This document shows positions 1 through 20,333 of a stretch of DNA of 24,221 bases, piece after piece. Source of the DNA: a virus; IMG/VR virus record IMGVR_UViG_3300007363_000100, positions 1-24,221 of that record, one strand, 5' to 3'. The position numbers and the translations under genes were made by a program. Positions within the stretch are counted from its first letter, which is position 1. Each line of letters opens with the position of its first letter. The notes beneath the pieces were generated by a model that was given only the letters and a program-made list of their open reading frames with translations, did not search any database and had not been told where the DNA came from.

Positions 1-842
1 CCTGCACTGGCTGTCGCCGCCAAGGAGGTTACTTGGCTTGGCGCGGTAGTATCGCCGGGGGTCGGAGCAGTCCCGCACCCAATACGAGTATTGCCTACGG
101 CAAAATCATCGTAGTAAAATTTCCCCTCGCCGCCTTGGGCCATAATTTTCGTCCGGTGGATTCCGTCAGGCTGACCCGCCACAAGAAAGGGCCTGTTGTA
201 ATAGCCGAGAGTTTGGCGGCCATCAATAAAGATTTCCAACGATCCGTCCGCTTGCCCTGCCGTGCCGAGATTGACATGGGTTTCGACGCAATACCATTGT
301 CCATCATTGATCGCTACGCGGTCCATATTCACAGGGAAGTCACAGCTTCCGTTCGTATTCCCGCTTGGGCAGAGCTGATCGGGGGTGCCTTGCACCCCAA
401 CCATAAGCTCCTTGCTCCCCCATTTATGCCCCCACACGATGCTGGGCGTATCATCCGGTGTATAATCGTAGACGTTTTTGGAGTTGCCCCCTGTATAGCC
501 CCCGTTGACCGTCCTAAACCAAAACCGCTTCCAGTGGTCAGCCGATGAAGGAAAGTAGCGCGTGATATTGACGCCGGATGCCCCCGTGCCCCCATCAGGA
601 TAGAGCGCCCCAGTATAATCAGCCTCGACTGAGTGCGTCCCAGAACGGGGAAGTGCTGTGGAGCGGGTAGGGTTGCAGCCATCTGCCCAAGGGGCACTCG
701 CTGGCGCAATCCACACACAGGCATCCGTCGTCCATCCGCTACTCAGGAGCGTGCCCGTGTCAAAGGTTTCATCAAAAAACGTCTCCGCCCCCGCCACGGT
801 CGGGAACAGCATCACCAGCACACACACAAGTCGAATCAGCAT
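1..842 (-). CDS. Exported jelly-roll (LamG/polysaccharide-lyase-like) protein, 3' end missing
   Basis: I translated this by hand from the ATG at 840-842, which overlaps the previous stop (TAATG). There are 280 codons without a stop to the left edge, so it is truncated by the window. Residues 1-19 form a signal peptide (MLIRLVCVLVMLFPTVAGA, cut before ETFF). Residues 20-256 look like a concanavalin-type jelly-roll, with HWKRFWFRTVNGG, DGQWYCVETHVNLGTAG near 180-196 and LEIFIDGRQTLGYYNRP, resembling the W..vE.hV.LN..G..DG..E.wiDG pattern of polysaccharide lyases. It ends KFYYDDFAVGNTRIGCG. Six mature cysteines are seen (42, 56, 158, 167, 185, 256). After residue 264, DTTAPSQVTSLAATASA looks like the start of a fibronectin type III domain. 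Confidence 0.75.
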   Translation of the reverse strand, partial: MLIRLVCVLVMLFPTVAGAETFFDETFDTGTLLSSGWTTDACVWIAPASAPWADGCNPTRSTALPRSGTHSVEADYTGALYPDGGTGASGVNITRYFPSSADHWKRFWFRTVNGGYTGGNSKNVYDYTPDDTPSIVWGHKWGSKELMVGVQGTPDQLCPSGNTNGSCDFPVNMDRVAINDGQWYCVETHVNLGTAGQADGSLEIFIDGRQTLGYYNRPFLVAGQPDGIHRTKIMAQGGEGKFYYDDFAVGNTRIGCGTAPTPGDTTAPSQVTSLAATASA

Positions 843-3091
843 TAGTTCCTCGCAGCGCGTGTGGCGGCAGGATCGCCGCTCGATGATTGATAGGCTCCGA
901 TGTCGGGGCGGTCGGGGTAACAGGCGCGGCCACGGTAGTCGATACAGAGTACCCCGCCCGTTCCAGCTCTCCGAAGCAGGGATGTGGGCCGTAATCGGTA
1001 ATCCGTTGTTGACATAAAGAGCGGGTCAGTTTGCAGCCCGTTTGCTTCTTTCCCTTGTGCCTGGAAGCCTGTGAATGTGGTGCTTTGCGTGGCATCTCCT
1101 CCGTCTGAATACTCAAACATGGCCGCGCCAGTCGTCACATAATCGTTGTAGTTGACAATGTTCGCGGCGAAGGCGGCGTTTGTCATGCTGCACATGGTCA
1201 TGTTCTTTGTTGTCGCAGACACCACGTTATTGACAATCTTCTGTGCGTTCGCTGCGAGCCCCAACATCAACCCATGCGTGACACCAGAAAAATAATTATT
1301 ACTGACTATGGCGGTGTTGGCGGTACGGTAGCCGAGATACCCCACCGATTGCCCAGCCGTAACACAGGTCCCGATATTTGCCGTGGCGGGGTCAAGATCG
1401 TGGATCTTATTGCCAAAATACACGGCGGTCGTCATGCCTGTACTTTCGGACTGTTCCCATAGCCCAATCGGCACATGCGACACATCGTTCAGTGAGGCGT
1501 AGAATCCAACAGAAGGCCGAGCCGTCGCGCCATGCGAGGCAATGCCGTACAGTGCATACGACAGCGTGTTCCCCCGCACCACATTACTATCTGTCGCAAC
1601 GTCATTTGAGGCGAATCCGATCAGGCCCCCTTCGTTGTCTAGTGCCGCCATCGGTATCGCATGGCTTACGGTATTGTCTACTGCTTGGCAATAAGAACAC
1701 CCCGACAGATCAAGTAACCAGTCGCCGTAGGTGAGAGTCGAGTTGCGAACGATCATGCGAAGGCGAGCCGTCACATTCGTAACGTGGGCCATCAGTTGCG
1801 CCGTTACTCCATCCATAATGAAATCGTTCGTGACGCCTTTTACAAGTTGATGCCCCGACGCACGTACATCCAGACCGTCTAGCGTAATAAAGGTTTTGCT
1901 GTTCACATCAATAGTCGCACTTGTCGAACCGCCTATCGCATAGATGTTGCCGCCGTTGTAGGACTCAGAGCTTGGAATCCCTTCTGGGGAATAGACATAG
2001 ATTGCAGCGTAGTTCGTTGCGTAGTTGCGGCGATACCAAATGGCGCTACTCGATAGGGAATTCTGATCGGCGGCTTGATCGGTAAACACAGTTCCCTTGA
2101 GCAGCATTGTTTCCGAGAGGCTCCCACTTAACACCCCAGCAGGAGTGCTCCACACACCATTGTTACGGTCTGTCCAGAGTGGACGCCACGCCACTTTCCC
2201 GATGTACACACTTGATCCGTTCGCTCCGGCTGCAAGAATTTGCAACGTGGGACCGCGGTTACTCGCATCGACGCGAACGCGGATAGATTTCGTGGTCCAT
2301 TCCGTATCCGCCGTGGTGCAGGCGAGCGCCGCAATGTAGGCCCCGCCAGCCGTGCCCCATGTTGAGTACTCTCCGTTACCATCAACGCTATCAGACAAGC
2401 TCGTGGTATCGTTAAAGCGCACAGTGGCACTCGCCGTACCATCGCTCTTGCATTGATAGGTGAATTGATAGGCTTCCTCCTTGGTCGCATAGAAATCGTT
2501 GGAGAGTCTTGTCGGACCCGCCGTACCGTTGGTGACTTTGGCGCTGTAGTATTCACCTGTCGGCACAACGGTCGTCTCCTGGGCGATTGTTGCGGCTGTG
2601 CCTTTCGTCTCCGTCCATGATGTAAAATTGGACGAATCCCCACCCACCAGTGACGCGAATCGGCCATTAACAAATATCCCTAGCGTGTCGGATTGCCCGC
2701 GTCCGTGCAGGAAATACGCATCATCGTCCTCTTCGTTCAGTCGCACATGCGCCGGGGCATACAGCACCACCCCAGACTGTTGCGTGATGGTAATTGGCGA
2801 CCCGGACGTTCCAGAGTCCCCGACCGTCAGCCCATCTTTGAAGTCAGTCCCAACGATGGTTAAGGTATCCCCTGCTACGACTCCTCCACCGCCCCACACG
2901 ATTGTCGAAGCCCCAGCCGTTCCCGCCCACGCCCCCACGCCCCCATCGCTCGCCGCGCATGTTGACGCCGTGCCATCCCCATTAAAGGCGCATGGGCCAC
3001 TAGGACGCGATTGCGTCACATACCACGTTGTTGCCTTAGCCCATGACGGCATCAGCAACGCTAGGAGGAGAAGGAGGAGAAGGATGGGCAT
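842..3091 (-). CDS. Exported parallel beta-helix protein with inserted carbohydrate-binding-like domain
   Basis: The 749-residue product starts with a Leu-rich signal (MPILLLLLLLALLMPSWAKA before TTWYV), oddly lacking a positive n-region. It then resembles secreted pectate-lyase-like right-handed beta-helices: TTWYVTQSRPSGPC... at the N-terminus, and later many short turns such as NTVSHAIPMAALDNEGGLIG and VVRGNTLSYALYGIASHGAT. The end carries DPLF..DYRLRP.S..R.AG...DIGAYQ, a hallmark of bacterial secreted beta-helix proteins. Residues about 137-305 look like an inserted CBM4/9-type jelly-roll (SNFTSWTETKG, VVPTGEYYSAKVTNGTAGP). A polysaccharide-binding or depolymerising role is likely; catalytic residues cannot be picked. 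The stop overlaps the next start (TAATG). Confidence 0.75.
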   Translation of the reverse strand: MPILLLLLLLALLMPSWAKATTWYVTQSRPSGPCAFNGDGTASTCAASDGGVGAWAGTAGASTIVWGGGGVVAGDTLTIVGTDFKDGLTVGDSGTSGSPITITQQSGVVLYAPAHVRLNEEDDDAYFLHGRGQSDTLGIFVNGRFASLVGGDSSNFTSWTETKGTAATIAQETTVVPTGEYYSAKVTNGTAGPTRLSNDFYATKEEAYQFTYQCKSDGTASATVRFNDTTSLSDSVDGNGEYSTWGTAGGAYIAALACTTADTEWTTKSIRVRVDASNRGPTLQILAAGANGSSVYIGKVAWRPLWTDRNNGVWSTPAGVLSGSLSETMLLKGTVFTDQAADQNSLSSSAIWYRRNYATNYAAIYVYSPEGIPSSESYNGGNIYAIGGSTSATIDVNSKTFITLDGLDVRASGHQLVKGVTNDFIMDGVTAQLMAHVTNVTARLRMIVRNSTLTYGDWLLDLSGCSYCQAVDNTVSHAIPMAALDNEGGLIGFASNDVATDSNVVRGNTLSYALYGIASHGATARPSVGFYASLNDVSHVPIGLWEQSESTGMTTAVYFGNKIHDLDPATANIGTCVTAGQSVGYLGYRTANTAIVSNNYFSGVTHGLMLGLAANAQKIVNNVVSATTKNMTMCSMTNAAFAANIVNYNDYVTTGAAMFEYSDGGDATQSTTFTGFQAQGKEANGLQTDPLFMSTTDYRLRPTSLLRRAGTGGVLCIDYRGRACYPDRPDIGAYQSSSGDPAATRAARN

Positions 3092-3948
3092 TATTTCCAC
3101 TCCTGGATGACAAGATAACCAGGGCACCCGTTGCCGCCTGCAAAGGTCGGAGCGCCCCCGCCACCACCAGCTCCGTACCCACCAGTACAGGCAGTGCCTA
3201 CCGCATTCGATCCTCCAATAGCCCCTGTCCCCATGAGCGAGTTGCCCCCCGTGCCACCGCCACCTTTCGTACCGTTTGACGCGCCTCCCGCGAGGTTCGC
3301 CATGGCCGCGCTATACCCACTCATCGCAGGCACGATGCCGCCGTTCGCTGGTCCTGTGGCTCCCCCACCAGCCGAGCCACTTTCGATTCTCGTGGCATCG
3401 CCGCCCTGGACGAGGACTTGCGAGATCACCCCCGCCGCGCCAGTTCCCGTCCCCGTCACAGGGCATGTCTGAAGAATCGCATGGCACCCTCCAGCCCCAC
3501 CGTTTGTTACGGTGCCTGTCCCTGGTGCGGTATTGGGTCCGTGGATACTGTAGGTCCCCAGCGGGAGTCCGGCGATGGTCGTGTGAAGATTCACGATTCC
3601 ACCAGCCGATCCAGCCGCCGCGCCAACTCCTGCTGTGCCAATCGTTATGGTGAGGGCTGTCCCTGGCACGACGACAATCGGTTGTCGGACGACACAAACC
3701 GCGCCCCCTCCACCGCCTCCGCCGCCGCCTGGGTCGGCAGTATGTCCGCCTGCCCCGCCCCCGCCAGCGCCGCAGCCGGTGACACTGATGAAGTTACTGG
3801 TGGGAGTGTATGTACCGTTCGCCGTGAATGTCGTCGTCACAAGTGTCTGCCCAGGTGAGCCAGCAGCACTAGTGGTAACGGCTGCGGCCCACACCCCCGT
3901 CGGCAGGAGCAACGCGAGGATGAATATGGAAGTTAAGAGTTGTTTCAT
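3091..3948 (-). CDS. Exported polyglycine adhesin-like protein
   Basis: The 285-residue product starts with a classic signal (MKQLLTSIFILALLLPTGVWA, cut before AAV). A strand opening TTTFTANGTYTPTSNFISVT follows, as in phage and bacterial glycine-rich domains, which begin with F.A.GT.T.P. Long glycine runs come next (CGAGGGGAGG, then PGGGGGGGGGAV, later GGGGTGGN and GYGAGGGGGAP). Such runs can pack as polyglycine-II helices, as in the S16 gp38 receptor-binding adhesin, where loops between them bind the receptor. The mature protein also carries cysteines, in keeping with export. A phage adhesin normally lacks a signal peptide, which makes this unusual. It shares one base (TAATG) with the next gene. 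Confidence 0.74.
   Translation of the reverse strand: MKQLLTSIFILALLLPTGVWAAAVTTSAAGSPGQTLVTTTFTANGTYTPTSNFISVTGCGAGGGGAGGHTADPGGGGGGGGGAVCVVRQPIVVVPGTALTITIGTAGVGAAAGSAGGIVNLHTTIAGLPLGTYSIHGPNTAPGTGTVTNGGAGGCHAILQTCPVTGTGTGAAGVISQVLVQGGDATRIESGSAGGGATGPANGGIVPAMSGYSAAMANLAGGASNGTKGGGGTGGNSLMGTGAIGGSNAVGTACTGGYGAGGGGGAPTFAGGNGCPGYLVIQEWK
3100..3104 (-). promoter_or_regulatory. Ribosome binding site for the beta-helix protein
   Basis: AGGAG lies eight bases before the ATG at 3089-3091. It fixes this start over a GTG at 3127 that would overlap the previous gene and add twelve residues ahead of the signal sequence. Confidence 0.78.
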
Positions 3949-3953
3949 GGTCG

Positions 3954-3959
3954 CCCCTT
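3954..3959 (-). promoter_or_regulatory. Ribosome binding site for the polyglycine protein
   Basis: AAGGGG lies five bases before the ATG at 3946-3948 and supports that ATG over an in-frame start 24 bases upstream within the previous gene. Confidence 0.75.
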
Positions 3960-4483
3960 TAATACATCGCATACATCACCGCCGTGGTTAGGCCAGAGCT
4001 GGCCGTGGTTATTACGTAGTAGTAGCTGAAGTTCGCTGTCACAACAGGGCACGCATCGGAGGTGGCTGTGGTTCCTGTGAGGGTCAGCGTACAGAGCAGC
4101 ACCCCGTTAGAGGCTGTCGAACTGAACGCCCCATAGAGCTTCATGGTCTGTGCAATCGCGCCTGCGCCGGTCAGGACACCCATGAAGGTCTTGGAGCCTG
4201 TAGGCACCGCGACAGCGGCAGAGGTGGTATCGGTGATTTGTGATTCGACGGTCGTTTGCCGAACCACGCCACCGCTGGTTTGGAGCAGGTTATTCGTCTG
4301 TTCCTCACCGGAGATGAGGGTGCCGAGGGTCACACGCAAGTTGCCTGAGGTATCGCAACTTAACAGCCCCATGGCCGTAAGATCGGCAAACGTTGGTGCG
4401 GCGGTTCGCACATCGCACATCGCGGCCCATGACTCAGAGGCCGTCCAGACGGCCATCAGCACTAGAACCCTCATCCATTTCAT
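3959..4483 (-). CDS. Small exported protein with Sec signal peptide and four mature cysteines
   Basis: The 174-residue product starts with a Sec signal: basic MKWMR, hydrophobic VLVLMAVW, and a cleavage-like ESWA/A site before MCDVRT. The mature part has four cysteines, suggesting two disulphides formed outside the cytoplasm. It is Thr/Ala/Gly-rich and strand-like: LRVTLGTLISGEEQTNNLLQ, then VPTGSKTFMGVLTGAG and VLLCTLTLTGTTATSD. I do not recognise the family. The NLRVTLG..I.G.EQTNNLL stretch resembles segments of small phage structural proteins, so an exported variant of a virion module is possible. It is the first of four consecutive signal-peptide genes. Confidence 0.68.
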   Translation of the reverse strand: MKWMRVLVLMAVWTASESWAAMCDVRTAAPTFADLTAMGLLSCDTSGNLRVTLGTLISGEEQTNNLLQTSGGVVRQTTVESQITDTTSAAVAVPTGSKTFMGVLTGAGAIAQTMKLYGAFSSTASNGVLLCTLTLTGTTATSDACPVVTANFSYYYVITTASSGLTTAVMYAMY

Positions 4484-4490
4484 ATGCGGC

Positions 4491-4497
4491 CCTCCTT
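4491..4497 (-). promoter_or_regulatory. Ribosome binding site fixing the first exported protein start
   Basis: A perfect AAGGAGG lies seven bases before the ATG at 4481-4483. It makes this ATG preferable to an in-frame ATG 39 bases upstream that would overlap the tail-fibre gene and bury the signal peptide. Confidence 0.88.
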
Positions 4498-4508
4498 GAA
4501 TCCTCACG

Positions 4509-5447
4509 CTAACCTCCGTCATGGGTGTAAATAACGCAGCCTTGTAACTTCACGGTGCCGCCTGTCGGGAAATCGGTGATTGCCAGAATGGCGCTAGCCT
4601 GTCCTGATCCGCTCGCGTAGCAAGTCACCTGCGTCGAGGCTGAGGCCACAGATCCGACCACTTGCGTATAGTTTGCTTTCGTCATGCCGGAAAACATGAC
4701 CGCTTGCCCCATAAAGGGACTCATAAGCGTGGAGGCGCGAAACAACAGCCCTGTAATCAGGAGATTTCCCGATGCCGTGGTATGCGTAAAGGACGAGGTG
4801 ATGATGTTGAACCAAGCGGTAATCTTGTTGCCGGAGATTTCGAGATAGCCCGTCTGCGTGGTGTAGGCTACCGAGAGATCGCCAGGGGTGACACAGGTCA
4901 AGACCGGCGTCCATCCGTCCAACCCCTTGCGGAGATTCAACACCTGCAGGTAGGTGCCGTCGTATTGCACGGTGACGAGATCCCCGATGCGGAGTTCTCC
5001 GCCCACGAGGGCCAGCGTGCCGTTATGACAGGTCTTAGCGGCCAGCCCTGAGATCGCCACCGTCGTACTGCCCGTATTTGTCGCGCCGACGATAAAGCTG
5101 AACTTCTGGCCTGCCACATACGCCGTAATGGCAGGCGAAGGCGTCAACGTGATCGCGTTACCCGTCCCGCCGACCGTGCCGACATACACGCCGGTCCCGT
5201 CCTGCACGTTCCCAATGTTGCAGGAGTCGGTGCGGGCGCTGCCTGCCCCCAATCCCGTGAACTTGTAGGTGGCCATCGGGATATTGGCTGTGATGGTCGT
5301 TTGTCCGTCCTTGCAAATGCGGTTACTCATCGCCGTCGCCGCATCGGCGGTATAGGCGTTGAACACTGCCGCCATGATGGGCGTATCCGTAATGACGGGT
5401 TGCCCTGTGCTATTGACGACATACACCCCTGAGCCGTTATCTGACAT
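4509..5447 (-). CDS. Tail-fibre-like or host-recognition protein
   Basis: The 312-residue protein has an N-terminal region followed by DAATAMSNRICKDGQTTITA and NIPMATYKFTGLG, a pattern typical of phage tail-fibre shafts, in which KDGQTT..ANIPM..YK.TGL repeats link the fibre to distal domains. The centre is rich in Gly, Thr and Ser with beta-strand alternation (GTGNAITLTPSPAITAYVAG, FIVGATNTGSTTVAISGL). The C-terminal part (TQTGYLEISGNKITAWFNII) may be a distal receptor-binding domain. There is no signal peptide, unlike its four downstream neighbours. AGGGGA stands seven bases before the ATG. The receptor cannot be predicted. Confidence 0.72.
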   Translation of the reverse strand: MSDNGSGVYVVNSTGQPVITDTPIMAAVFNAYTADAATAMSNRICKDGQTTITANIPMATYKFTGLGAGSARTDSCNIGNVQDGTGVYVGTVGGTGNAITLTPSPAITAYVAGQKFSFIVGATNTGSTTVAISGLAAKTCHNGTLALVGGELRIGDLVTVQYDGTYLQVLNLRKGLDGWTPVLTCVTPGDLSVAYTTQTGYLEISGNKITAWFNIITSSFTHTTASGNLLITGLLFRASTLMSPFMGQAVMFSGMTKANYTQVVGSVASASTQVTCYASGSGQASAILAITDFPTGGTVKLQGCVIYTHDGG

Positions 5448-5449
5448 CG

Positions 5450-6868
5450 TTAGTTCCCCTGGTTCGCCAGTTGTGAAGCCGTTGCGCCAGTGATCGGCGT
5501 GCCTCGCTTCAGCAATTCATCGAGAATGGCCTGATACCTTGGATTGATCCCTGACGTTGCGAAGTTCTGATAGGGGTTCGACAACACCAGCGACCGTGCC
5601 GGACTGCGTAACAGCGGCAAGGCGGCAGCAGCCATGCCAGCAGGCCCACCAGCGGCCCCATAGCCCACCGTCCCTAGCAAGGCTGAGGCGGCAGCATCAG
5701 TGCCACTCACGCCCGATGACGGCACCCGCGCCCCTTCCCGCATCACCGATGGGAAGGCTTCGGCCATTTGCCCGATGGTCCTGAGTTCGCCGCTTTTCGC
5801 GGCCATGCCTGCTTTGTCGAGTTGTCGCCCGATGATGGGAGCGGAGATGTTTTCGTCACCAAAGTTCAACGCCTTCTCCACATCGTGGATCTTGGCAATC
5901 TTAGTCCGCGCTTCGGTCAACGCCTTGACGAGATCCTCGCGGCCATTCGCCTTCGCAATGTTGACAATATCTTTATGGATCGACGCGGCTTGAGCATCGA
6001 AGGCTCGTGCGGCGTCCCGCGCCTCAGAGTTGCCCATCTTCGACGCTTTCCATGCGTCACTCGCACTCTCTCGCGCCTTGGCGAGCTGCCCCACAAGATC
6101 CTTTTCGTGGAAGCGCGGGAACCACTCCATCTTGTCGGTAGGCTTGAGCTGTGAGACTTCTTCGTAGACTTTCCCCGCTTGTTTCCGTGCGGCCCGTAAG
6201 GTGTCCTCTGTCAATGGCGCATCGTCAGCCAAGCCAAGGGCCTTCTTCGCCAGGGCATTCGTCACGGCCTGATTGCGTTTGGCCGCTTCCTGGCCTACGG
6301 CGGCTTTCCCTGCCACGCTTTCGAGCTTGTTGGTGAGCCATGAGGGGTTGACGGTAGACGGCGGCACCACATAGCCCGCCTTGCGGCCTTCTTTGAGCGT
6401 TTCAGCCGCAACGGGATTGAGCAGGGATTTCCCAGCCCCCATGACCTTACTGGCGATGCCTGCCACAGCGGGCACTACGCCTTGCATCGCCCCAGTGATC
6501 GCGATACGTCCTATATCCGGTTTATTCGCTTCAGGGATGACGCTTCCAGCCGGTGTCAGTCCGGTTGCCTGGCTGATCGTTTCACCTAATGCCGCCCCTG
6601 CCATCGCCCCAGGCACGCCACCAATGGCCGTCCCTGCCGTCGCGCCCAATGCAGGCAACGCCCCTTCGCGCACGAATCGACCCGCGTATTGCGGCAAGGA
6701 CTCAGCCTGCTTTGCGCCCGCTATCGCCATTTTGTAGTCAAGGGAGTTGGCGTGAGCCTTGAGCGCGTTGAGATCGACGGGCGCAACAGACGCGACTTCA
6801 GGCGCGTTCAACCATGCGGGAGTTCCGCTAGGCTGTGCCTCAATCACTGGGGCGTCTTGCCATCCCAT
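5450..6868 (-). CDS. Ejection-type protein with glycine-zipper hydrophobic segments
   Basis: The 472-residue protein has two Gly/Ala-rich hydrophobic segments, GALPALGATAGTAIGGVPGA with following residues (69-96) and AAASALLGTVGYGAAGGPAG with following residues (390-420), suited to membrane insertion or glycine-zipper packing. Between them lies a helical region with AGYVVPPSTVNPSWLTNKLE near 170, a pattern shared with podophage DNA-ejection proteins, and a long charged segment (for example ARAFDAQAASIHKDIVNIAK). No enzymatic motif is seen, and I find no lytic transglycosylase signature. It follows the coiled-coil ejection candidate with a one-base overlap (TAATG). AGGAAG is eight bases upstream of the ATG. 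Together with neighbours it may form the trans-envelope conduit, which is inference. Confidence 0.7.
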   Translation of the reverse strand: MGWQDAPVIEAQPSGTPAWLNAPEVASVAPVDLNALKAHANSLDYKMAIAGAKQAESLPQYAGRFVREGALPALGATAGTAIGGVPGAMAGAALGETISQATGLTPAGSVIPEANKPDIGRIAITGAMQGVVPAVAGIASKVMGAGKSLLNPVAAETLKEGRKAGYVVPPSTVNPSWLTNKLESVAGKAAVGQEAAKRNQAVTNALAKKALGLADDAPLTEDTLRAARKQAGKVYEEVSQLKPTDKMEWFPRFHEKDLVGQLAKARESASDAWKASKMGNSEARDAARAFDAQAASIHKDIVNIAKANGREDLVKALTEARTKIAKIHDVEKALNFGDENISAPIIGRQLDKAGMAAKSGELRTIGQMAEAFPSVMREGARVPSSGVSGTDAAASALLGTVGYGAAGGPAGMAAAALPLLRSPARSLVLSNPYQNFATSGINPRYQAILDELLKRGTPITGATASQLANQGN

Positions 6869-9250: not shown

Positions 9251-10272
9251 CAGAACATCATCGCTCCGGCCATCAAGGCGGTCCCGCCAAGCCCTACTAG
9301 CCCTGCCGTGTTCGCGCTATTTCTGGCCTGATTCGCGTTATAGACATCGGTCCCGTACTGTCCGGCCTGTTGTGCCGCGTTATAGACCGGCGCGGCTTGG
9401 ACGCTGGCGTTCTGTGCGTACCCTGGCATCTGGAACGGGTTGCTCGTTTGTGAGCCGGACATGAGCGCGGTGATTTCATTCAGCGGCACCTGACGCTGCG
9501 CGAGGAGTTCAGAGAGGCCCTGTTGACGGCTCTGCATGTCCATCCCGTAGGCTTGCTGCGTCTGATTGCCTGCGTTGATAATGGCTTGCTGTTGCGCATC
9601 GTTCTGCTGCCGGTTAATCAGGTTCATCTGCGCGTCATACGCCTTGGTGCCTGGCCTGATACCCGCTGCAATGAGGTCTGAGTTCGTGTTGTCGCGCTTG
9701 ATGCCGAGATCCTCGTTCGGGCGGGCCATCATCGCGTCATAGACTTGATTGCGGAGGCTGTTGTAGTCCCCAGGCGCGGCAGGCGCACCGGAGTAATCGA
9801 CCTTGCTACCGATGATGCCTTGCGCGGCACCAATGCCTTGATTGGCGAGTGACCCCAGCCCTTGCTGATTGCCGACTTGCTGGTTGTAGAGGGCTTGCTG
9901 TTCAGGGGAGAGTTTCTGAATAATCGTAGCTTGGTTCGGGTCGCTATACGTACTGCGATCAGGTGGGGCCAGGGCGTTCAACGTATTGAGCTGTTGCGCT
10001 CTGGCGTCAAGCTGCGCCTGTGACCAGCCGTTCGTATCTTGCGATTTGAGCGAGTTGATCTGCGCTTGATTGGTGTTATAGGCCGCCAGGTCTTGATTGT
10101 ACTGATCCTCGTTAAACTTCCCCCATTGCGTTGTCTGCGTGCCGTAGGGGCTGATGACGTTCGGGTTATTGATCTGCCCCTGTACCTTCGCCGTTTCGAC
10201 GTTCGCGGCGCCTTGAGCCTGCGCTGCGCCCACGTAATCCGGTGCCGGAGGAGGACTACCGCCCTTTGACAT
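9250..10272 (-). CDS. Minor virion protein, probable internal or ejection-associated protein
   Basis: The 340-residue protein opens SKGGSPPPAPDYVGAAQAQG, a Pro/Ala/Gly/Gln-rich start I recognise from a family of podophage minor structural proteins encoded between nozzle and ejection genes. The middle is very rich in Gln and Asn (for example NDAQQQAIINAGNQTQQAYG), predicted helical with weak hydrophobicity. The last 20 residues, around GLVGLGGTALMAGAMMF, form a glycine-containing hydrophobic segment that could insert in a membrane. GAGGAG sits five bases before the ATG. The family is sometimes labelled tail-fibre domain, but nothing here shows a fibre. An internal or DNA-transfer protein fits location and composition better. 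Confidence 0.6.
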   Translation of the reverse strand: MSKGGSPPPAPDYVGAAQAQGAANVETAKVQGQINNPNVISPYGTQTTQWGKFNEDQYNQDLAAYNTNQAQINSLKSQDTNGWSQAQLDARAQQLNTLNALAPPDRSTYSDPNQATIIQKLSPEQQALYNQQVGNQQGLGSLANQGIGAAQGIIGSKVDYSGAPAAPGDYNSLRNQVYDAMMARPNEDLGIKRDNTNSDLIAAGIRPGTKAYDAQMNLINRQQNDAQQQAIINAGNQTQQAYGMDMQSRQQGLSELLAQRQVPLNEITALMSGSQTSNPFQMPGYAQNASVQAAPVYNAAQQAGQYGTDVYNANQARNSANTAGLVGLGGTALMAGAMMF

Positions 10273-10699
10273 AATAGCTCCTCTTCAAGAATCGGCAGGC
10301 GTCTTTCTGCATCGTGTAGAGCAGCATCGCCCCTGACGGATCGGCCTGCGGGATCTGCGTCACTAGGGAGAACCCTAGCCGCTCGCACAAATGACGCGAC
10401 TTGACGTTCCCTTCAGCCACCAGGCCGAGAATGACGTTCACGCCGAGATGCACAAAGGGATAGTGGAAGATCGCCCACAACCAGCGGCGAGTGATGGGGC
10501 CAGCTATGGCGATGCTCGCCATGATGGAAGCCCCGTTGTAGTAATCGTAGAGTGTACCGGCCACGAGTTCGCCATCACGTTCCAGGCCGATGCACGTAGC
10601 CCGATCCCGTGACGCAATCGCGCCGTGCTCTTGCATCCAAGAGCCGACCCGATGGGTATCTGTGGTGATGTGGTAGTCTGTGGGGCAACTCACCGGCAT
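10256..10699 (-). CDS. GNAT-family acetyltransferase
   Basis: The 147-residue enzyme shows the GNAT pattern. Beta strands carry ATCIGLERDGELVAGTLYDY and ASIMASIAIAGPITRRWLWA. A LGVNVILGLVAEGNVKSRHL segment follows, with an Asn near residue 98 and the CoA-proximal helix ending in CERLGF at 105-110. This matches the last strand-helix of the fold, where the N...ER/EKLGF motif sits. Similar acetyltransferases are found between tail genes of other podophages. The substrate is unknown: an N-terminal amine, a sugar amine of the proposed glycan, or a host protein are all possible. It follows the only sizeable gap in the tail region and overlaps the next gene by 17 bases. Confidence 0.78.
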   Translation of the reverse strand: MPVSCPTDYHITTDTHRVGSWMQEHGAIASRDRATCIGLERDGELVAGTLYDYYNGASIMASIAIAGPITRRWLWAIFHYPFVHLGVNVILGLVAEGNVKSRHLCERLGFSLVTQIPQADPSGAMLLYTMQKDACRFLKRSYYVKGR

Positions 10700-10787
10700 T
10701 GGATCATCCTTGTAAGACGTTCCGCTGTCGGCGGTATGACAAATGCGATGCGGTAAGAATGCAGAAAGACCGCTAGAAAGTCAAGGT
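10700..10787 (-). promoter_or_regulatory. 88-base intergenic gap with weak promoter-like elements and small hairpins
   Basis: This is one of the few gaps in an otherwise overlapping operon. On the minus strand TTGACT is followed 17 bases later by CATTCT, a fair -35 with a poor -10. GCGGT/ACCGC and CCGC/GCGG inverted repeats could form small hairpins without T-runs, so they are not terminators. AAGGA lies nine bases before the acetyltransferase ATG. It might allow separate expression of the downstream genes. Evidence is thin. Confidence 0.3.
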
Positions 10788-12356
10788 CTAAATCCCTTGC
10801 CCGGGTTCATACATCATAGACGCGCCCATCCATTGCACCGTGAGCACGTTCGACGTGATCTTGACCTTGCCTGAGATCCATCGCCCTTGCCATTCTGACG
10901 GCGAGGACCATTGCCGGACGATCTCAGAGGATGCCGCCCAGTATCCGCTATCCCAGAGCGAGGTATCCCATACGGCCCCTGCGGTCGTCACATACGTCAC
11001 CGTCCCGCTGATCGGTTCGTCCTTAAAGTCTACGTCAATGTCTGCGCCGTAGGCGACTGATCCATCCACCACCAGGAACGGCATGAACAGTTTGACATGC
11101 TTCTGGCGCGAGTCGCCAAAGTCTTGAAAGGCTTGTTTGGCGTAGAAGTCAATCGCGTTGCCGTTGTCTGCCGTACCGGTCCAGGCTTTATAGACCGTCG
11201 TGCCTTTGCAGAAATACAGCTCTCCGCTCAGAATGCCGAAGTCCTCCGCATTCCAGCCGGTGAAGCGGCACCAGGACTTCGTAATCGTATTCATCACGTA
11301 TTGCTGATGGGTGCCGTCCTCAGACTGCGGGATGTTGACCAACAGCGCGTCATACTTCGGGAAGGCAATGGCTCGCCAGCCGTAGACCGTGCCATAGAGC
11401 CGTGCGGCTGCGGTAAAGGCGTCTTGGATCTTGTAGGAGAGTGCAAACTTGTTGCGGTCGTCGCCGCTTTGCAGTAAGGCCGTGAGCGGGAACGTCCCGT
11501 TTTCCGTAATGACCACGCAATCGCCGCCGTACTGAATCACACAGCGCCGACCCAGTGGCCGTCCAATGGTATAGCTGCCCACCTTACCCCAGGTCGTCGC
11601 GCTCGAGGGGTTGGTGCCTTGATAGACGGCTACTTCACCCTCAGAGGAGAGAAATACGGCAAAGTCATCAGGGCCGCTCCCAGCGTCCCGCGTCCAGGTT
11701 GCCATCGCCATGAGATAGCCACCACTCTTGAACTCGCCGGACAGGTCGTATTCAGTCAACGCCCCCCCTGCGGCCCCTGCGGCGAGATACCAGAACGAAA
11801 GCGATTGTTTCGGGATGAAGAACAGTCGGCCCTTAAAGACGTTGACCCCGATGAAGTCCTCGACCGCGTTGCCGGTATAGCCGGTCAGGGCGGGGGAGGT
11901 CGCGTGCGTCACCGCCGTCCATGCCGATCCGTCGTAATACGCGGGCTTATCGACCCCATTCACCGCAATCAGCCAGTTGCTTGTGCCGTCGCCAAAGCGT
12001 TCATGCTGGTGCTTGCCGTTGGTGCGGACCAGCACAGCAGCCCCTACAGCCCCCGCTGTGGTCACTTCGTAGACCCCCGAAGAAGTTGAGCAATACAGCT
12101 CATTCGTGCCGGTCAGCGTGTTGTAGGGCATCAGCGTCTTGCCGTTGCCCGTCATGCCGGTAGCGTGAGAGGCATGGCCCCCTCGAAACTCCACATAGGA
12201 GGGGCGGGGATACCAGTTCTGCAACTCAATGGCGTCCGTGGGTTTCATGGAAGCGAGGGCGTCACGCGCATTCCAGCCCCCCACCGGCGCAGCGTAGGAC
12301 TTCATTATGGAGACTTGCTGTTGCGGGGCACCTTTAGCACGTAATGGCATTCTCAT
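10788..12356 (-). CDS. Tail nozzle/hub-type protein (tail tubular protein B-like)
   Basis: The 522-residue protein begins near MRMPLRAKGAPQQQV and then shows APVGGWNARDALASM and TDAIELQNWYPRPSYVEFRG. That opening is shared by many podophage nozzle or DNA-stabilisation proteins, in which the chain starts with a short segment before a six-bladed beta-propeller. Repeated short strands with conserved Trp, Gly and Asp follow (RLFFIPKQSLSFWYLA, DDFAVFLSSEGEVAVYQG), consistent with a propeller, and the end is beta-rich. Such proteins extend the portal-adaptor channel and hold the fibres. I chose the ATG at 12354-12356, after the previous stop; a longer open frame upstream would overlap the previous gene heavily. 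The Shine-Dalgarno is weak. Confidence 0.72.
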   Translation of the reverse strand: MRMPLRAKGAPQQQVSIMKSYAAPVGGWNARDALASMKPTDAIELQNWYPRPSYVEFRGGHASHATGMTGNGKTLMPYNTLTGTNELYCSTSSGVYEVTTAGAVGAAVLVRTNGKHQHERFGDGTSNWLIAVNGVDKPAYYDGSAWTAVTHATSPALTGYTGNAVEDFIGVNVFKGRLFFIPKQSLSFWYLAAGAAGGALTEYDLSGEFKSGGYLMAMATWTRDAGSGPDDFAVFLSSEGEVAVYQGTNPSSATTWGKVGSYTIGRPLGRRCVIQYGGDCVVITENGTFPLTALLQSGDDRNKFALSYKIQDAFTAAARLYGTVYGWRAIAFPKYDALLVNIPQSEDGTHQQYVMNTITKSWCRFTGWNAEDFGILSGELYFCKGTTVYKAWTGTADNGNAIDFYAKQAFQDFGDSRQKHVKLFMPFLVVDGSVAYGADIDVDFKDEPISGTVTYVTTAGAVWDTSLWDSGYWAASSEIVRQWSSPSEWQGRWISGKVKITSNVLTVQWMGASMMYEPGQGI

Positions 12357-13889: not shown

Positions 13890-14564
13890 TTATTCGTCGA
13901 TCAAATCGCTGGCTGAAATGTCGTCCGATTTCTTGCGACCGCGTGCCGATGGCTTCTTCGCGTCCTTCATCTCCGCTTGCATCACCTCGATTTTCGCGGT
14001 GAGCGTGGTGACGGTGTTCAAGAGCTGCTCGTTCGTCCGTTGCAGCGCCGTCATGTCTTGCGTCAGTTTACCCTTATCCTGCGAGGCCGTCATCCAGTTT
14101 TTTGCCTTGTTCTTGAGTTCAATCGCGCCCATGCCGATCTTGCGCAAGCCTTCGTCGTTGAGATCGGACAAGTCCTCAACGGTCCTGATCCCCACCCGCA
14201 GAAGAATCTCGACCTGTGCGGGGCTAATGACAGGCCATGACTTGATGGGCGTACCGTGGACCGGCATCTCCTGCCCGGCCTTCCAGCGTTTGTAGCTTTC
14301 CTCGTAGGCGTTCGCATGGGAGGCGTCGAGCCGTCCCGCCTGTACGTCCAGCTTGTTCTGTGCCAGCCATTGTTCCACCTTAAAGACGACGGAATCGGTA
14401 GCCCCAAGCTGCCGGACTGTGACCATATCCACATCCCGCGCCACATAGCGCCCCGCTTCTTCACTTTCCTTCTTCTGTTCCTTCGCAATCGTCTGAAAGC
14501 TCACAAAAGCGGGCTTGCCGTTCTTCGTGCTTAACTCTCCGGCTATGTCTGCGATACCGTTCAT
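13890..14564 (-). CDS. Conserved head-associated phage protein with HhH-like segment and coiled coil
   Basis: The 224-residue protein has three visible parts. Residues 20-60 (VSFQTIAKEQKKESEEAGRY) precede a VARDVDMVTVRQLG strand. The centre contains QEMPVHGTPIKSWPVISPAQ followed by VEILLRVGIRTVEDLSDLND, a helix-hairpin-helix-like pattern. Residues about 165-205 form a coiled coil with LTQDMTALQRTNEQLLNTV. The end is basic then acidic (GRKKSDDISASDLIDE). I recognise the central pattern as recurring beside head genes of environmental podophages, but I do not know its role. It has GGAGG seven bases before the ATG and overlaps the C-methyltransferase stop (ATGA). It may be a virion-assembly or minor head protein rather than part of the glycan cassette. 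Confidence 0.6.
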   Translation of the reverse strand: MNGIADIAGELSTKNGKPAFVSFQTIAKEQKKESEEAGRYVARDVDMVTVRQLGATDSVVFKVEQWLAQNKLDVQAGRLDASHANAYEESYKRWKAGQEMPVHGTPIKSWPVISPAQVEILLRVGIRTVEDLSDLNDEGLRKIGMGAIELKNKAKNWMTASQDKGKLTQDMTALQRTNEQLLNTVTTLTAKIEVMQAEMKDAKKPSARGRKKSDDISASDLIDE

Positions 14565-15661
14565 ACTGCAACCTCCTCAGCAAAAGGGACGATAAAGTTC
14601 AAATTGGGGAACTGGGCACGGATTTCTCGCTCAAAGTTCCACGCCGTCAGAATCACGCCCGCTGGTGGACGTTCCTTGAGCATCTGCATCGACGCAATCG
14701 GGATCTTCGTGCCAGGGATAAACCGGCCCTGCTTGGCAGGGGTGTTGTCTACGCAGTAGTCGATCACCTTGGCGAGTCCAAAGTGATGAATCAAGGTGGT
14801 CGCCTTGGCCGTAGCCCCAAAGCAGGCCAGCGTGCCGTCTACGTCGAACACTTGCCGCTGGATCACGCGCTTGGCTTGATAGATGCGCTCCTGAAACGCT
14901 CGCCAGTCTAGCGGCTCTTCCGGCAGGACCATCCCCACCCCAGGCCGTTCGCAATAGACGCGAATGGAGCCGCCATGCGTCCCTAGAAACTCATAATTCG
15001 TGATGACCAGGCCATACCGCTTCAGGAACGGCACCCACGGCTTGAGGGTGTGATAGTCACGATGCTCGTGGTAGATCATGTCGAAGGCCCCCATGTGCAT
15101 CATGGCGGGCAGGTATTGCACTTCAAAGACCAGTACGCTGTCATCGTGCATCAGCCGGTCAATGCCGGAGAACACATCGCGTAAATCGTCCACATGGGCC
15201 AATACGTTGTTGGCAACGATCAAATCGACGGGCGGCAAGGTCATGGCGAGGGCATGGGAGAACGGGGCTTTCACGCCCACCGTGGCGCAAGGGTCCACGC
15301 CGTAGGCATTGATCCCCACCCGCTGCAATTCTTCCAGATAGAGGCCGTTATTGCTGCCGATTTCGAGGCCGGTCTTGAGCGACGGATAGCGGTTGTGAAT
15401 CCGTTGCGCGGCGTCAGCCAAGTGTGGCCGGTTCGCTTCGGGCGTGCTGTACTTGTAATCCACCCAATCCACCGTCACCTTTTCGCGTAACTGCACATGG
15501 CCGCATCGCAAGCACTCCTGCACATCCAGCGGCAACCGTTCGGCGTGGGTATCTGGTTCAGCGGGAAAGCTGTTCGCAATCGGGGTGGGTGTCAGCGAGA
15601 GCATGACGCGGGATTCCCCAGCGCACATGCGACAGGCCCATTCAGAGTAGTGTGCGCCCAT
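14561..15661 (-). CDS. TylC3/TcaB9-type sugar C-methyltransferase
   Basis: The 366-residue product matches the three-part architecture of C-3' methyltransferases acting on NDP-4-keto-6-deoxysugars. (1) A small zinc-binding N-terminal domain has CRMC at 10-13 and CLRC at 50-53. (2) A SAM-binding core has LEIGSNNG at 99-106 and ANNVLAHVDD near 150. (3) A C-terminal Rossmann-like domain has GATAKATTLIHHFGLAKVI and NTPAKQGRFIPGTKIPI. The family's catalytic YHEH lies at 197-200. All parts are intact, so an active enzyme is expected. In known members it makes branched deoxysugars for antibiotics or O-antigens. No dTDP-sugar synthesis genes are in the window, so the substrate would come from the host or from phage genes elsewhere. 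Confidence 0.87.
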   Translation of the reverse strand: MGAHYSEWACRMCAGESRVMLSLTPTPIANSFPAEPDTHAERLPLDVQECLRCGHVQLREKVTVDWVDYKYSTPEANRPHLADAAQRIHNRYPSLKTGLEIGSNNGLYLEELQRVGINAYGVDPCATVGVKAPFSHALAMTLPPVDLIVANNVLAHVDDLRDVFSGIDRLMHDDSVLVFEVQYLPAMMHMGAFDMIYHEHRDYHTLKPWVPFLKRYGLVITNYEFLGTHGGSIRVYCERPGVGMVLPEEPLDWRAFQERIYQAKRVIQRQVFDVDGTLACFGATAKATTLIHHFGLAKVIDYCVDNTPAKQGRFIPGTKIPIASMQMLKERPPAGVILTAWNFEREIRAQFPNLNFIVPFAEEVAV

Positions 15662-16137
15662 TATGGCTTGACCCCCTCAATCCGCATATCCCGTGCGGCG
15701 ATATGAAAGACCGGCTCCATCACCGTGACAGACTGATAGCCCACGCTATTGAGGGCTTCCGTCAGTTCGTCCTGTGACCAGCACCATTGATGCATCATGT
15801 CAGGCTTGCCGTCGCGGGGATCACCAAAGATCCCAAACAAGGTGAGCCGCAGATTCTTTTCGCCGTTGACGATCATGCGGGCAATCTTGTCGAGGCAGGG
15901 CAGCTCTAACACCAGCTTCCCCCCAGGCTTGAGCACGCGAAACCACTCAGTCAGCACTTGCGAGGCGTCTTTACGATGCAAATGCTCAAGTAAGTGAATC
16001 GCCCACAGTTCGTCGGCGTGATCCGTTGGGAAGGGCAGGGGGAAGGCATCGCTGTTGATGTCCTGGTTGCCGTGGCGGTCGATATTGACGAATCCAGGCA
16101 GGTATTTATCCCCCGCGCCCACATTCAAACGAATCAT
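15661..16137 (-). CDS. Class I SAM-dependent methyltransferase (Methyltransf_11 type)
   Basis: The 158-residue enzyme is a compact class I methyltransferase. Motif I is LNVGAGDKYLPGFVNID (4-20), with D20 placed to hold the SAM ribose. LPFPTDHADELWAIHLLEHL (34-53) matches the motif around the second strand and helix, with the typical LEH ending. VLKPGGKLVLELP (68-80) is the post-motif strand and turn. This variant is common for small-molecule, sugar or lipid methylation in glycan clusters. It overlaps the GT4-like gene by four bases and the C-methyltransferase gene by one (TAATG). The substrate is probably a sugar or the glycosylated product. Protein methylation is possible but nothing in the sequence points to it. 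Confidence 0.82.
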   Translation of the reverse strand: MIRLNVGAGDKYLPGFVNIDRHGNQDINSDAFPLPFPTDHADELWAIHLLEHLHRKDASQVLTEWFRVLKPGGKLVLELPCLDKIARMIVNGEKNLRLTLFGIFGDPRDGKPDMMHQWCWSQDELTEALNSVGYQSVTVMEPVFHIAARDMRIEGVKP

Positions 16138-16982
16138 GCGGCCACCCGCTCAATCAGTTCGCGCCATTGCTGGCCGACGTTGGCCGGTGAGAACTTCTCA
16201 ATGTAGGCTTGCCCTTCCGCCACCAAGTCGTTGAGATGATCTTTTTCCGACTGTGCCCACTTCAGGCCGGTGATGAAGTTGCCCACCCAGGCCACTTTCT
16301 TGAACTCAAAGAGCGAGGGGAGTTGATCGCCGCAGACCGGAAAGCATCCGGCGCGTAAGGCGTTGACCAGTCTATTAGGGCTTTTGTACTCGGTGCCTTT
16401 GCGCGTGGGAATCAGGACAATGTGCGCCCGGTGGAGTTGTTCGGCCTGTGCGTCAGGCGTCCAGCGGATATAATCGGCCTTCCAGTGATGGTTTTCGCCA
16501 GTCACTACCGTAAGGTCCATGTCCTTCAAATACGGCATCCACGGCGACAATTCTTTCAAGTTGATCTGATGCCCGTACCACAACAGCCGCTCGGCTCCGT
16601 TCGCGTGCGGGGTCGTCAAGGCTTCTTCATACGGGTCGGGGATGACCATATCGGCGTGCCGGTCAAAGTACTTGTAGAGCCGTCCTGACATATTGTCCGT
16701 CGGCGTGACAATGGCATCAGCCAGCCCCACCATCTCACGATAGACCGGACCCCACACAGGATGAGGGAACAAATCATCGCCTACGTCAAAGATGATCTTC
16801 AGCCCGTCCGCTTTCGAGTCTTTGGCAAGCTGAATGTCGTCAGGCGTCGGCTTGGAGAAGATCAAGACTTGCGCTTCGCCACCGTTCACCGTCCCGCCAA
16901 TCGCCTCAGCAGGGATAGCAGCGCGATACCGATAACTCGCAAAGGTCGGCCCACTCCGATGCACAAAGACGGCTTTGGTCAT
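16134..16982 (-). CDS. GT4-like (GT-B fold) glycosyltransferase
   Basis: The 282-residue protein resembles compact phage and bacterial GT-B glycosyltransferases. The N-terminal half contains VFVHRSGPTFASYRYRAAIP and IIFDVGDDLFPHPVW. The C-terminal half has the donor-site pattern YKSPNRLVNALRAGCFPVCG, comparable to the conserved segment of GT4 enzymes in which a loop precedes EAMAxGxPVV-like sequence. It ends in an amphipathic helix (EKFSPANVGQQWRELIERV) typical of this fold. The length is short for GT4, and the N-terminal Rossmann domain looks reduced. It overlaps its upstream and downstream genes by four bases each, so it is firmly within the cassette. Donor and acceptor are unknown. Confidence 0.8.
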   Translation of the reverse strand: MTKAVFVHRSGPTFASYRYRAAIPAEAIGGTVNGGEAQVLIFSKPTPDDIQLAKDSKADGLKIIFDVGDDLFPHPVWGPVYREMVGLADAIVTPTDNMSGRLYKYFDRHADMVIPDPYEEALTTPHANGAERLLWYGHQINLKELSPWMPYLKDMDLTVVTGENHHWKADYIRWTPDAQAEQLHRAHIVLIPTRKGTEYKSPNRLVNALRAGCFPVCGDQLPSLFEFKKVAWVGNFITGLKWAQSEKDHLNDLVAEGQAYIEKFSPANVGQQWRELIERVAA

Positions 16983-17767
16983 ACCCTCTTCCCCTGTTTC
17001 TTCCGTTCATCCAGAATCGCGGCAATCAGCCCGCCGCCTTTGGCTTCGATGTGTATATCAGGAAGGAGAGAGTACGTCACTAATTGAAATTCATTGGCCT
17101 GTGCCGCCATCGCCATATTGCACTCAAACCGCTGTCCACCCACGTAGACATCCTGAGTCACTCCCGTGCGGGAGCCGTCAAAGCGTTTTGTCCCGTCTGC
17201 CGCATTACAAGAGTCATACCCGTAGAGCACAAAGTTGCGGTAGCCCATGATATAGGCCAGGGCAATCGCCCGCAGCCCCGACGTAGACCCGCCTCCGCAG
17301 GCGTACTTGGTCGTGTCCTTGAACGCTTTCATCTCTTCGCTGGTGCCAAAGGCGTTCCAGAGCACCACATGGCAGTCGCTCAGATAGTCAAAGACTTCGA
17401 CCGCGACACGCGAGGACAGCAGATAGAGGGTGTGCTGATTCTTCCGCTTGAGGTTCACACGGCGATCACGCGGTTCAACGGATACAAAGAGATCCGGTTC
17501 GATCCCTTGTTCGCAGAGATAGTCATGCGCCCCTTTGACGGCGCAAATCGGGCGTCCTTTGGCGCGTTCCGCTTTGATCTGGTCGATGACGGTGGGGAGC
17601 GAAGGGCCACTCCCCACACAGACCATCGTTCCGTCATGCGCGACAAGCGCAGGCACTAACTCCGGCAACCCACGAGCCAAATTCTTCTGGATCACCTCGA
17701 TATGTTGCGAGGCATTGCCGAACTGGCTCACGTCGATGGTCAACGGTTTCAGGGTTGCCGTTGTCAT
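16979..17767 (-). CDS. DUF115/MptE-Maf-like protein (putative glycosyltransferase or nucleotide-binding enzyme)
   Basis: The 262-residue product carries the DUF115 pattern shared by archaeal MptE-like pterin diphosphokinases and bacterial Maf proteins, which take part in flagellin glycosylation. Seen: GSGPSL at 52-57 in a Rossmann-like turn, AVKGAHDYLCEQGIEPDLFVS with D92 and E98, the Gly-rich GGGSTSGLRAIALAYIMGYR at 158-177, and LYGYDSC at 181-187. I chose the ATG at 17765-17767, one base after the previous stop; the open frame extends upstream, but only into the preceding gene. There is no signal peptide. Its stop overlaps the GT4-like gene (ATGA). With two sugar-related neighbours, transfer of a sugar to a virion protein is the favoured hypothesis, but the reaction cannot be read from sequence. 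Confidence 0.75.
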   Translation of the reverse strand: MTTATLKPLTIDVSQFGNASQHIEVIQKNLARGLPELVPALVAHDGTMVCVGSGPSLPTVIDQIKAERAKGRPICAVKGAHDYLCEQGIEPDLFVSVEPRDRRVNLKRKNQHTLYLLSSRVAVEVFDYLSDCHVVLWNAFGTSEEMKAFKDTTKYACGGGSTSGLRAIALAYIMGYRNFVLYGYDSCNAADGTKRFDGSRTGVTQDVYVGGQRFECNMAMAAQANEFQLVTYSLLPDIHIEAKGGGLIAAILDERKKQGKRV

Positions 17768-17768
17768 G

Positions 17769-18266
17769 TTACGCCGGGTTCGTGTACGGGTGGACGTACA
17801 TCGGCGTCGCGGCCACAACCGTGAGGGCGGTAGCCAACGAACCCGTTACCGGCAAGTACACCCCAGCCACGAGGCAGTTGGAGATGGTGGCATCATCCAA
17901 CTCGCCCGCGTTGGCCGTAGTGAACAAGGGCACGTTGTCCGCGCAATCGTCGGACAAGCGCATGAGGAACGTCCCCTGACGCATCGCCCAGCCGTAGTAG
18001 GCCGAGGCGATGGAGGTCTGAATACAGCCGACCTTCTTCCCGCTTCCGGCGTCAGCCGCAAGGGTCGTGGTCAACGGAGCCGCCGTGCCCTGCTCATAGA
18101 TCAGGACGGCGCAATACGCGGAGATCGCTTCTCCGGCAACAATGTACTCAGCCACGCCACCGGCATCCGTATGCACGATGGTGCCGACAGGAATGCGAGC
18201 GGTAGAACTCGAATCCGTCAGCGGGGGAGTGACAAGCGGACTGATGATTTTTGATGCGACAGCCAT
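17769..18266 (-). CDS. Small head decoration-like protein
   Basis: The 165-residue Ala/Thr/Val-rich protein follows the major capsid gene after 48 bases. A strong AAGGAG stands eight bases before its ATG. The sequence is beta-strand-like (GTIVHTDAGGVAEYIVAGEA, YCAVLIYEQG, QGTFLMRLSDDC) and ends in TPMYVHPYTNPA. Small beta-rich proteins immediately after the coat gene are commonly capsid decoration or cement proteins in tailed phages. It is the last head gene before the glycan cassette, so it is one possible substrate of those enzymes. That link is inference from position only. Confidence 0.62.
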   Translation of the reverse strand: MAVASKIISPLVTPPLTDSSSTARIPVGTIVHTDAGGVAEYIVAGEAISAYCAVLIYEQGTAAPLTTTLAADAGSGKKVGCIQTSIASAYYGWAMRQGTFLMRLSDDCADNVPLFTTANAGELDDATISNCLVAGVYLPVTGSLATALTVVAATPMYVHPYTNPA

Positions 18267-19301: not shown

Positions 19302-20333
19302 TTATTTGTCGCGTAAGTGAATTTTCGCGTAAGTGTCTTTTAAGGTGTCATCCAAGGACCCCACGGGGTCTGTCGAACTCCGTGCGGTATCACGGCTCCG
19401 CACATTGACGCCCTTCGCCGTTTTCTTCGGCAAGGCATCGAGGCGGGCGCGTTCTTTTGCCTTCTCGGCTTCTGTCTGAAGTCGAGCCTGCATCTGCTTT
19501 TCGCGTGTCACCGGATTGGCCCAAATCGCCCGCTGATAGGCTTCCTGTAAGGAGTCCCCAGCCTTGATGAACTTGGCGATGTCATCCGCCACATCCTCAA
19601 AGAAGGCGTTATTCGGGTCACTGGCGAACGCGTCCACTTCCTGCTTGATGGTGGCTTGTGCCGCCGCATACGCTTCCCGCTGTTTGGCGAGTTGCATTTC
19701 TTCGATCTGTGCGAGTTTCTGTTCAATGGTCTGTAGGCGAGGGTCAACCGGAGTCTGGGTGGCGGGATCGCCAGCCTGTTGCGGCTGTGCCGAGATGCCG
19801 AGATTGCGGCCCAATTCCTGATAGGCTTGCTGCCGTGATTCCGGCGTGCCGGTCGTCAGCCGTCGATTCGCTTCCAGCAAGAACTGCACGGCGCGTTGCG
19901 GTTCCACCCCATGCCGGACAAAATCCTCGTGATACGGCGACACCACATCGTGAAACGTCTTGCCGAAGTTCGCGGCTTGCTTGTACTGCTCCAAGCCGTC
20001 GAGCATTTGCTTTTCGCGGGTCTGCCAATACTGCTGCACTTGCGGAGGCGTCTTGGTCCAGTGCTCGTGCATCTCTTTCGGCCAGGACTTCGGCGCGGTC
20101 CCTGTCGTCGTCTCAGGGGTTGTCGCTGTCGTCGCGGCAGGGGTCGTCTCTGTCGGTGTTTGAGCGACAGCCTCTTCCTTGGGCTGTTCGGCCAATGCTT
20201 CAGCGACCGTCTCCGTCGCGGGCTTGTCTCCTTCAGGCGTCTCGACTTCGGGGAACAGTTCATTCCCCAACCGTTCAACGGCTGAATCCATGTCAAACCC
20301 GGTCTGTTCTTCCGCTACTTCTGTCTCAGGCAT
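19302..20333 (-). CDS. Scaffold-like capsid assembly protein
   Basis: The 343-residue acidic protein lies directly before the major capsid gene, the usual place for a scaffold. Residues 1-80 are Glu/Thr/Ala/Pro-rich and look disordered, with repeated TTPATTATTPET-like sequence. Next comes a helical region opening with SWPKEMHEHWTKTPPQVQQY and continuing for about 80 residues. The C-terminal half is charged and coiled-coil-like (IEQKLAQIEEMQLAKQREA), ending in a basic, then DDTLKDTYAKIHLRDK, tail suited to docking on a coat subunit. Similar proteins accompany SU10-type capsid genes. There is no protease motif. The call rests on position and composition rather than a catalytic signature. The start is set by GGAGG upstream of the ATG at 20333. 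Confidence 0.72.
   Translation of the reverse strand: MPETEVAEEQTGFDMDSAVERLGNELFPEVETPEGDKPATETVAEALAEQPKEEAVAQTPTETTPAATTATTPETTTGTAPKSWPKEMHEHWTKTPPQVQQYWQTREKQMLDGLEQYKQAANFGKTFHDVVSPYHEDFVRHGVEPQRAVQFLLEANRRLTTGTPESRQQAYQELGRNLGISAQPQQAGDPATQTPVDPRLQTIEQKLAQIEEMQLAKQREAYAAAQATIKQEVDAFASDPNNAFFEDVADDIAKFIKAGDSLQEAYQRAIWANPVTREKQMQARLQTEAEKAKERARLDALPKKTAKGVNVRSRDTARSSTDPVGSLDDTLKDTYAKIHLRDK

Follow-up and report, generated by a model that had tools for sequence, protein, structure and literature searches.

Four consecutive genes with predicted Sec leaders behind the tail-fibre-like gene of a podovirus-like phage: a candidate late cassette acting outside the cell

The virus record IMGVR_UViG_3300007363_000100 (24,221 bases; hereafter the window, i.e., the whole stretch of DNA that was analysed) is, judged from its genes, part of a podovirus-like phage genome. 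It carries, directly behind a tail-fibre-like gene, four consecutive co-directional genes (P4, P3, P2 and P1, with starts at 4483, 3948, 3091 and 842) whose products all begin with a predicted Sec signal peptide. Phage glycan enzymes and fibres are generally regarded as cytoplasmic virion parts, and the locus raises the question of what exported proteins would do at this position. The answer that we favour, with about even confidence, is that the four genes form a late Sec-exported cassette at the fibre/depolymerase position, whose products would act on the host envelope or matrix. The genes and their leaders are the following:

4509-5447, minus strand: leaderless tail-fibre-like gene immediately preceding the cassette; its N-terminus is the NGSG adaptor.
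4491-4497, minus strand: Shine-Dalgarno sequence AAGGAGG of P4, 7 nt ahead of the ATG.
3959-4483, minus strand: P4, 174 aa with Sec leader; mature part of 154 aa with 4 Cys; leader-bearing homologue in the related phage L012.
4424-4483, minus strand: P4 leader MKWMRVLVLMAVWTASESWA, then AMCD; recognised from the sequence, the weakest of the four by the cleavage matrix.
3091-3948, minus strand: P3, Sec leader and Gly_rich_2 domain (tail-fibre type), 6 Cys.
3886-3948, minus strand: P3 leader MKQLLTSIFILALLLPTGVWA, then AAVT; positive by the heuristic.
842-3091, minus strand: P2, 749 aa with Sec leader, 10 Cys; possibly a right-handed beta-helix.
3032-3091, minus strand: P2 leader MPILLLLLLLALLMPSWAKA, then TTWY, with an alternative cleavage after SWA; detected by heuristic and matrix.
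3-842, minus strand: P1, Sec leader, a weakly polysaccharide lyase 14-like domain, then FN3; truncated by the window end.
786-842, minus strand: P1 leader MLIRLVCVLVMLFPTVAGA, then ETFF; detected by heuristic and matrix.

A preliminary description of the locus had stated that the four genes are coupled by short gaps or overlaps and follow a tail-fibre-like gene, and both statements were confirmed. The fibre stop is separated from the P4 start by 25 nt and P4 from P3 by 10 nt, P3/P2 and P2/P1 are joined by TAATG stop-start overlaps, and a Shine-Dalgarno-like motif stands at each of the four starts. Since moving a start to a point downstream of its leader would open an untranslated stretch of about 20 codons and deprive the start of its Shine-Dalgarno site, we considered the annotated starts to be safe; misplaced starts were ruled out by these sites together with the TAATG overlaps.

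The leaders were evaluated with a home-made heuristic, consisting of an h-region (hydrophobic core) and a cleavage rule with an A-x-A-like site within about 18-30 residues. In its final version the heuristic was positive for 4/4 cassette genes and for 0/294 control genes, i.e., same-strand genes upstream of the homologous fibres in a survey of 80 related loci; an earlier, stricter version did not pick up P4. None of the other window genes was positive at its likely start, and the two matches obtained were both at internal GTG starts. A home-made cleavage-site matrix, built from 24 E. coli leaders, was also applied: P1 and P2 outscored 391/391 controls and P3 about 95% of them, while P4 did not stand out. 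The n-region (N-terminal segment) of P2 has no positive charge and that of P1 one R only. No lipobox or Cys at +1 was seen in the four leaders, which by inspection look therefore like those of the signal-peptidase-I type. The hydrophobic leader and A-X-A-like site previously described for each gene were thus confirmed, and the accompanying remark that signal peptides are usually absent from phage receptor-binding proteins applies within this group too, given the 0/294 result and the leaderless tailspike of the related phage L051 (see below).

An even number of Cys residues is the expectation for disulfide-bonded exported proteins. In the nine complete, Cys-containing leader proteins of the window and of two related phages, the mature parts contain 4, 6, 10, 6, 4, 2, 8, 2 and 20 Cys, all even, an outcome expected about once in 500 under random parity; a tenth leader protein has zero Cys and P1, being incomplete, was left outside the parity count. 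Cys content was 2.0% in the leader proteins vs 1.1% in the leaderless window genes, and in the latter parity was mixed. However, 6 Cys occur in the leaderless fibre as well; parity therefore supports export but is not decisive. Mature-part Cys residues, as earlier reported for the four proteins, were found in all of them (9 in a longer, incomplete copy of P1).

Two related phages carry leader genes in the same genome region:

5450-6868, minus strand: structural gene upstream of the fibre, with homologues in L012, L110 and L112; it served in the search for relatives.
L110 11083-11454, 11464-12423, 12420-13145, 13160-13621 and 13614-16349: five leader genes.

The first phage, L012 (IMGVR_UViG_3300034177_000015), has a portal 65% identical to that of the window and encodes, behind the homologous fibre, a P4 homologue (L012a; 40% over 130 aa, 1e-17) that shares the leader with P4, and a second leader protein (L012b). 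Between these two genes lies a NUMOD3/HNH homing-type endonuclease gene (19318-20064). In the second phage, L110 (IMGVR_UViG_3300045933_000063; portal 51% identical), the five leader genes are consecutive and follow the homologue of gene 5450-6868, through which, and not through the fibre survey, the cassette was found. The third of them, L110_3, is homologous to L012b (about 5e-7), with a leader in both, and the fifth, L110_5, contains a Beta_helix and a Laminin_G_3 domain and weakly matches choice-of-anchor-Q. A terminator-like hairpin precedes the L110 cassette (about 11044-11066); such matches are no commoner here than in shuffled sequence. Lack of a fibre in L110 was ruled out, as its NGSG adaptor was found upstream, between structural genes, as a stand-alone 173-aa gene (3129-3650) without a receptor-binding part.

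Overall, 11 leader proteins were counted in three phages (four in the window, two in L012 and five in L110), with mostly different protein sets, and the loci examined yielded no homologue without a leader for any of the 11. The L012 homologue of P4 and both members of the L012b/L110_3 pair thus have leaders. Export of the cassette proteins, as proposed in the preliminary description, appears well supported at the sequence level by the leaders, the even Cys counts and the leaders kept in diverged homologues of two phages. That the leaders are instead non-functional, because ordinary virion proteins happen to begin with hydrophobic residues or because the starts are misplaced, would fit the weak matrix result of P4, but it is hardly credible against the Shine-Dalgarno sites, the TAATG overlaps, the 11 leaders in three phages and the even Cys counts.

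In a stabilization-protein tree, the window phage, L012 and L110 fell into one 10-row clade (100/100), although not as sister rows; for most other members of the clade the contigs end before the cassette region. L051, from the same clade and with a readable slot, has leaderless genes there, including a tailspike (9787-11451) with Pect-lyase and Phage_depo_C matches (E 1.9e-5 and 0.002, respectively, both just under the curated cut-offs). This indicates that export belongs to part of one clade and not to the slot across the whole group. Next to the tailspike, L051 encodes a homologue of PagL (lipid A 3-O-deacylase; 9261-9740, E 1.1e-11) without an obvious leader. Generality over all phages with this fibre was also ruled out, since in the 80-locus survey large exported proteins behind the fibre were found only in L012 and in the window, together with the longer IMG/VR contig G001 (IMGVR_UViG_3300025635_000063, 39,162 bases) that includes the window, starting at base 383. 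At the other loci of the survey, downstream leader matches were mostly short holin/spanin-like hydrophobic proteins.

Regarding the nature of the proteins, P3 was the sole cassette member in which a fibre-type domain was found (Gly_rich_2, E 2.6e-7, above cut-off; phrog_863, tail, E 2.4e-5), and Gly_rich_2 occurs also in leaderless fibre-region proteins of the relatives L031, L134 and L117. The FN3 of P1, visible in a longer copy of the gene (L004 8001-9224, itself still incomplete), is like those of chitinase A1 and exoglucanase CbhB; a LamG-like third domain in P1 was unsupported in the comparison with L012b and weak in that with L110_3 (5/1000). P2 shares a short C-terminal motif, DYRL...AGT, with L110_5 (0/1000 shuffles), and since L110_5 bears Beta_helix, a beta-helix may be supposed in P2 as well; full-length homology between the two was not significant. 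No P2 homologue was found in the bacterial genome collection or in phage records with scans that reach fairly close relatives only, and no known domain was found in P4. A lysis cassette was ruled out, given that no lysis domains (Pfam/PHROG) were found in the four genes; no peptidoglycan-enzyme domain was matched in Pfam or PHROG, and the proteins did not fall into the signal-anchor-release (SAR) endolysin, spanin or lipoprotein class.

The earlier suggestion of secreted glycan-degrading or adhesin-like proteins is thus compatible with the predicted domain types, namely Gly_rich_2 and FN3 in the window and beta-helix and LamG in the relatives. The further suggestion of a capture from a bacterial secretome fared less uniformly: the FN3 of P1 and the choice-of-anchor-Q-like and LamG modules of L110 speak for it, while P3, with its Gly_rich_2, is of the phage fibre-region type. 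GC content at third codon positions was 0.60-0.61 in P1-P3 vs 0.66-0.73 in the tested core genes, in line with mosaic acquisition. These same secretome-type modules and the lower third-position GC would also be expected if the cassette were passive cargo, picked up from bacteria and contributing little or nothing to the phage cycle. We consider this very unlikely, because three diverged phages have kept cassettes of this kind in a single region and share two homologous leader-protein pairs, the frames are intact, the starts are coupled and P3 is phage-type.

The comparison with G001 revealed a local difference in P1:

46-651, minus strand: allelic block, 103 substitutions vs G001.

The two sequences are identical over 652-24221 (23.5 kb), and the 103 substitutions all fall within 606 bp, corresponding to one P1 domain behind the leader, with identical flanks. 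Substitutions across all bases changed 43 synonymous and 35 non-synonymous codons, a split that points to allele replacement and not to targeted mutagenesis; on the same grounds a diversity-generating retroelement (DGR) was ruled out as the source of the variation. Localised allele replacement is typical of host-interaction proteins. The variability of P1, the export of envelope-facing proteins and the presence of the PagL homologue in the same slot of L051 would suit a modification of the host surface, in which the proteins coat, mask or trim the receptors of the infected cell and block superinfection. This is nevertheless quite unlikely, since the cassette lies in the late structural operon, so that expression would be late, and neither a membrane anchor nor a lipobox nor any known exclusion family was found in it. 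For superinfection blocking, which had been suggested from the outset, no evidence was found.

For the late exported cassette that we favour, the following course can be proposed. The genes would be translated late, together with the structural operon, as suggested by the gene coupling, and the products would leave the cytoplasm via the host Sec system, lose their leaders and probably acquire disulfide bonds in the periplasm. During the late phase they may gather there, or host secretion may pass them on, and their targets would be glycans of the envelope or matrix, by the time of lysis if not earlier. At that point the loosening of host exopolysaccharide, or the binding of released surface fragments, would allow the progeny to escape and not remain trapped on debris, and free proteins outside the cell would take the role that the leaderless tailspike plays on the L051 virion. 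If this is true, some phages put resources into proteins that work free outside the cell, and the annotation of such genes would change.

Several observations weigh against this proposal. The leaderless fibre gene persists in the window phage, which leaves the need for additional exported proteins unexplained. No significant catalytic family was found among the cassette proteins: the polysaccharide lyase 14 match of P1 (E 0.003, 17.7 bits) is below the curated cut-off of 27 and the longer copy gave no match, and P2 has no significant Pfam/family match. AlphaFold models of P1 and P2 (predicted local distance difference test, pLDDT, about 30) were unusable because the relatives are too few. The cleavage-matrix score of P4 (4.3) was ordinary among controls, making its leader the weakest of the four, yet a leader is present also in its L012 homologue. 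Finally, the P1 block, near the contig ends, could be partly an assembly artefact of strain mixing.

The chief rival of the proposed model is that the proteins are virion appendages, i.e., distal fibre or tailspike parts that, after export, fold and form their disulfide bonds in the periplasm and are added to the tails once lysis ruptures the inner membrane. The occupation of the fibre position, the Gly_rich_2 domain that P3 shares with leaderless fibre-region proteins of relatives, and the allelic exchange in P1, typical of receptor-binding proteins, all agree with it, as does the L110 adaptor stub, whose missing receptor-binding part must have another source. However, no tailed phage is known to build appendages by periplasmic export, the NGSG adaptor that would tie the Sec proteins to the tail is absent from P1-P4 and sits in gene 4509-5447, and the leaderless fibre gene is retained; we regard this rival as rather unlikely. 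A broader view would be that one clade exports appendage or depolymerase proteins via Sec, matures them by disulfide formation in the periplasm and then either mounts them on virions during lysis or lets them go as free, rapidly changing, surface-active proteins; this, too, seems unlikely to us.

Partial likenesses to the cassette have been described. Porphyromonas gingivalis phages (proposed Nixviridae) have genes with host-type Sec signals, of function unknown and with a proposed action on the host exterior, as in the window phage; they differ in the number of genes (five), the Bacteroidota host and the Q rule, and no fibre-position cassette with glycan/fibre domains is described for them (PMC10367356). 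The podoviruses L051, L031 and L134 encode Gly_rich_2 or beta-helix proteins behind the NGSG adaptor at the same genomic position as in the window, but these have no signal peptides and are presumed virion parts. WceF of Pantoea stewartii, a bacterial enzyme that is exported and folds like a tailspike, is similar in its tailspike-like parallel beta-helix, export signal and biofilm-glycan target, but it is a bacterial gene with a Tat signal in an exopolysaccharide operon and not in a phage genome (PMC7949094). The lysis proteins fOg44 Lys44, SAR endolysins and T4 RI are also late phage proteins that use the host Sec (PMC6116005, PMC8385771); these are small lysis enzymes or regulators, unlike the cassette with its lack of peptidoglycan-enzyme domains. 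Phage glycoside hydrolase family 32 enzymes have no signal peptides (PMC4595243), and neither do phage DGR proteins, for which the absence was even taken to support phage origin (PMC6199706). Among the open PubMed Central papers searched, none was found to describe several genes for exported fibre/glycan-type proteins that recur as a cassette at the fibre position.

The assignment of the window to a podovirus-like phage is based on its portal (phrog_12082, E 1e-154), a tail/stabilization gene (phrog_5107, E 1.6e-111) and a structural protein (phrog_6121, E 3.8e-37), and its gene order resembles that of the annotated spring phage MW202489. No tRNA clues to the host were found. Inside the structural region, a block of sugar/methyl-transfer type genes (14561-17818) comprises a C-methyltransferase (Methyltransf_13/14), another methyltransferase, a gene with a glycosyltransferase-like appearance and an MptE-like gene, whose products might modify virion or host glycans.

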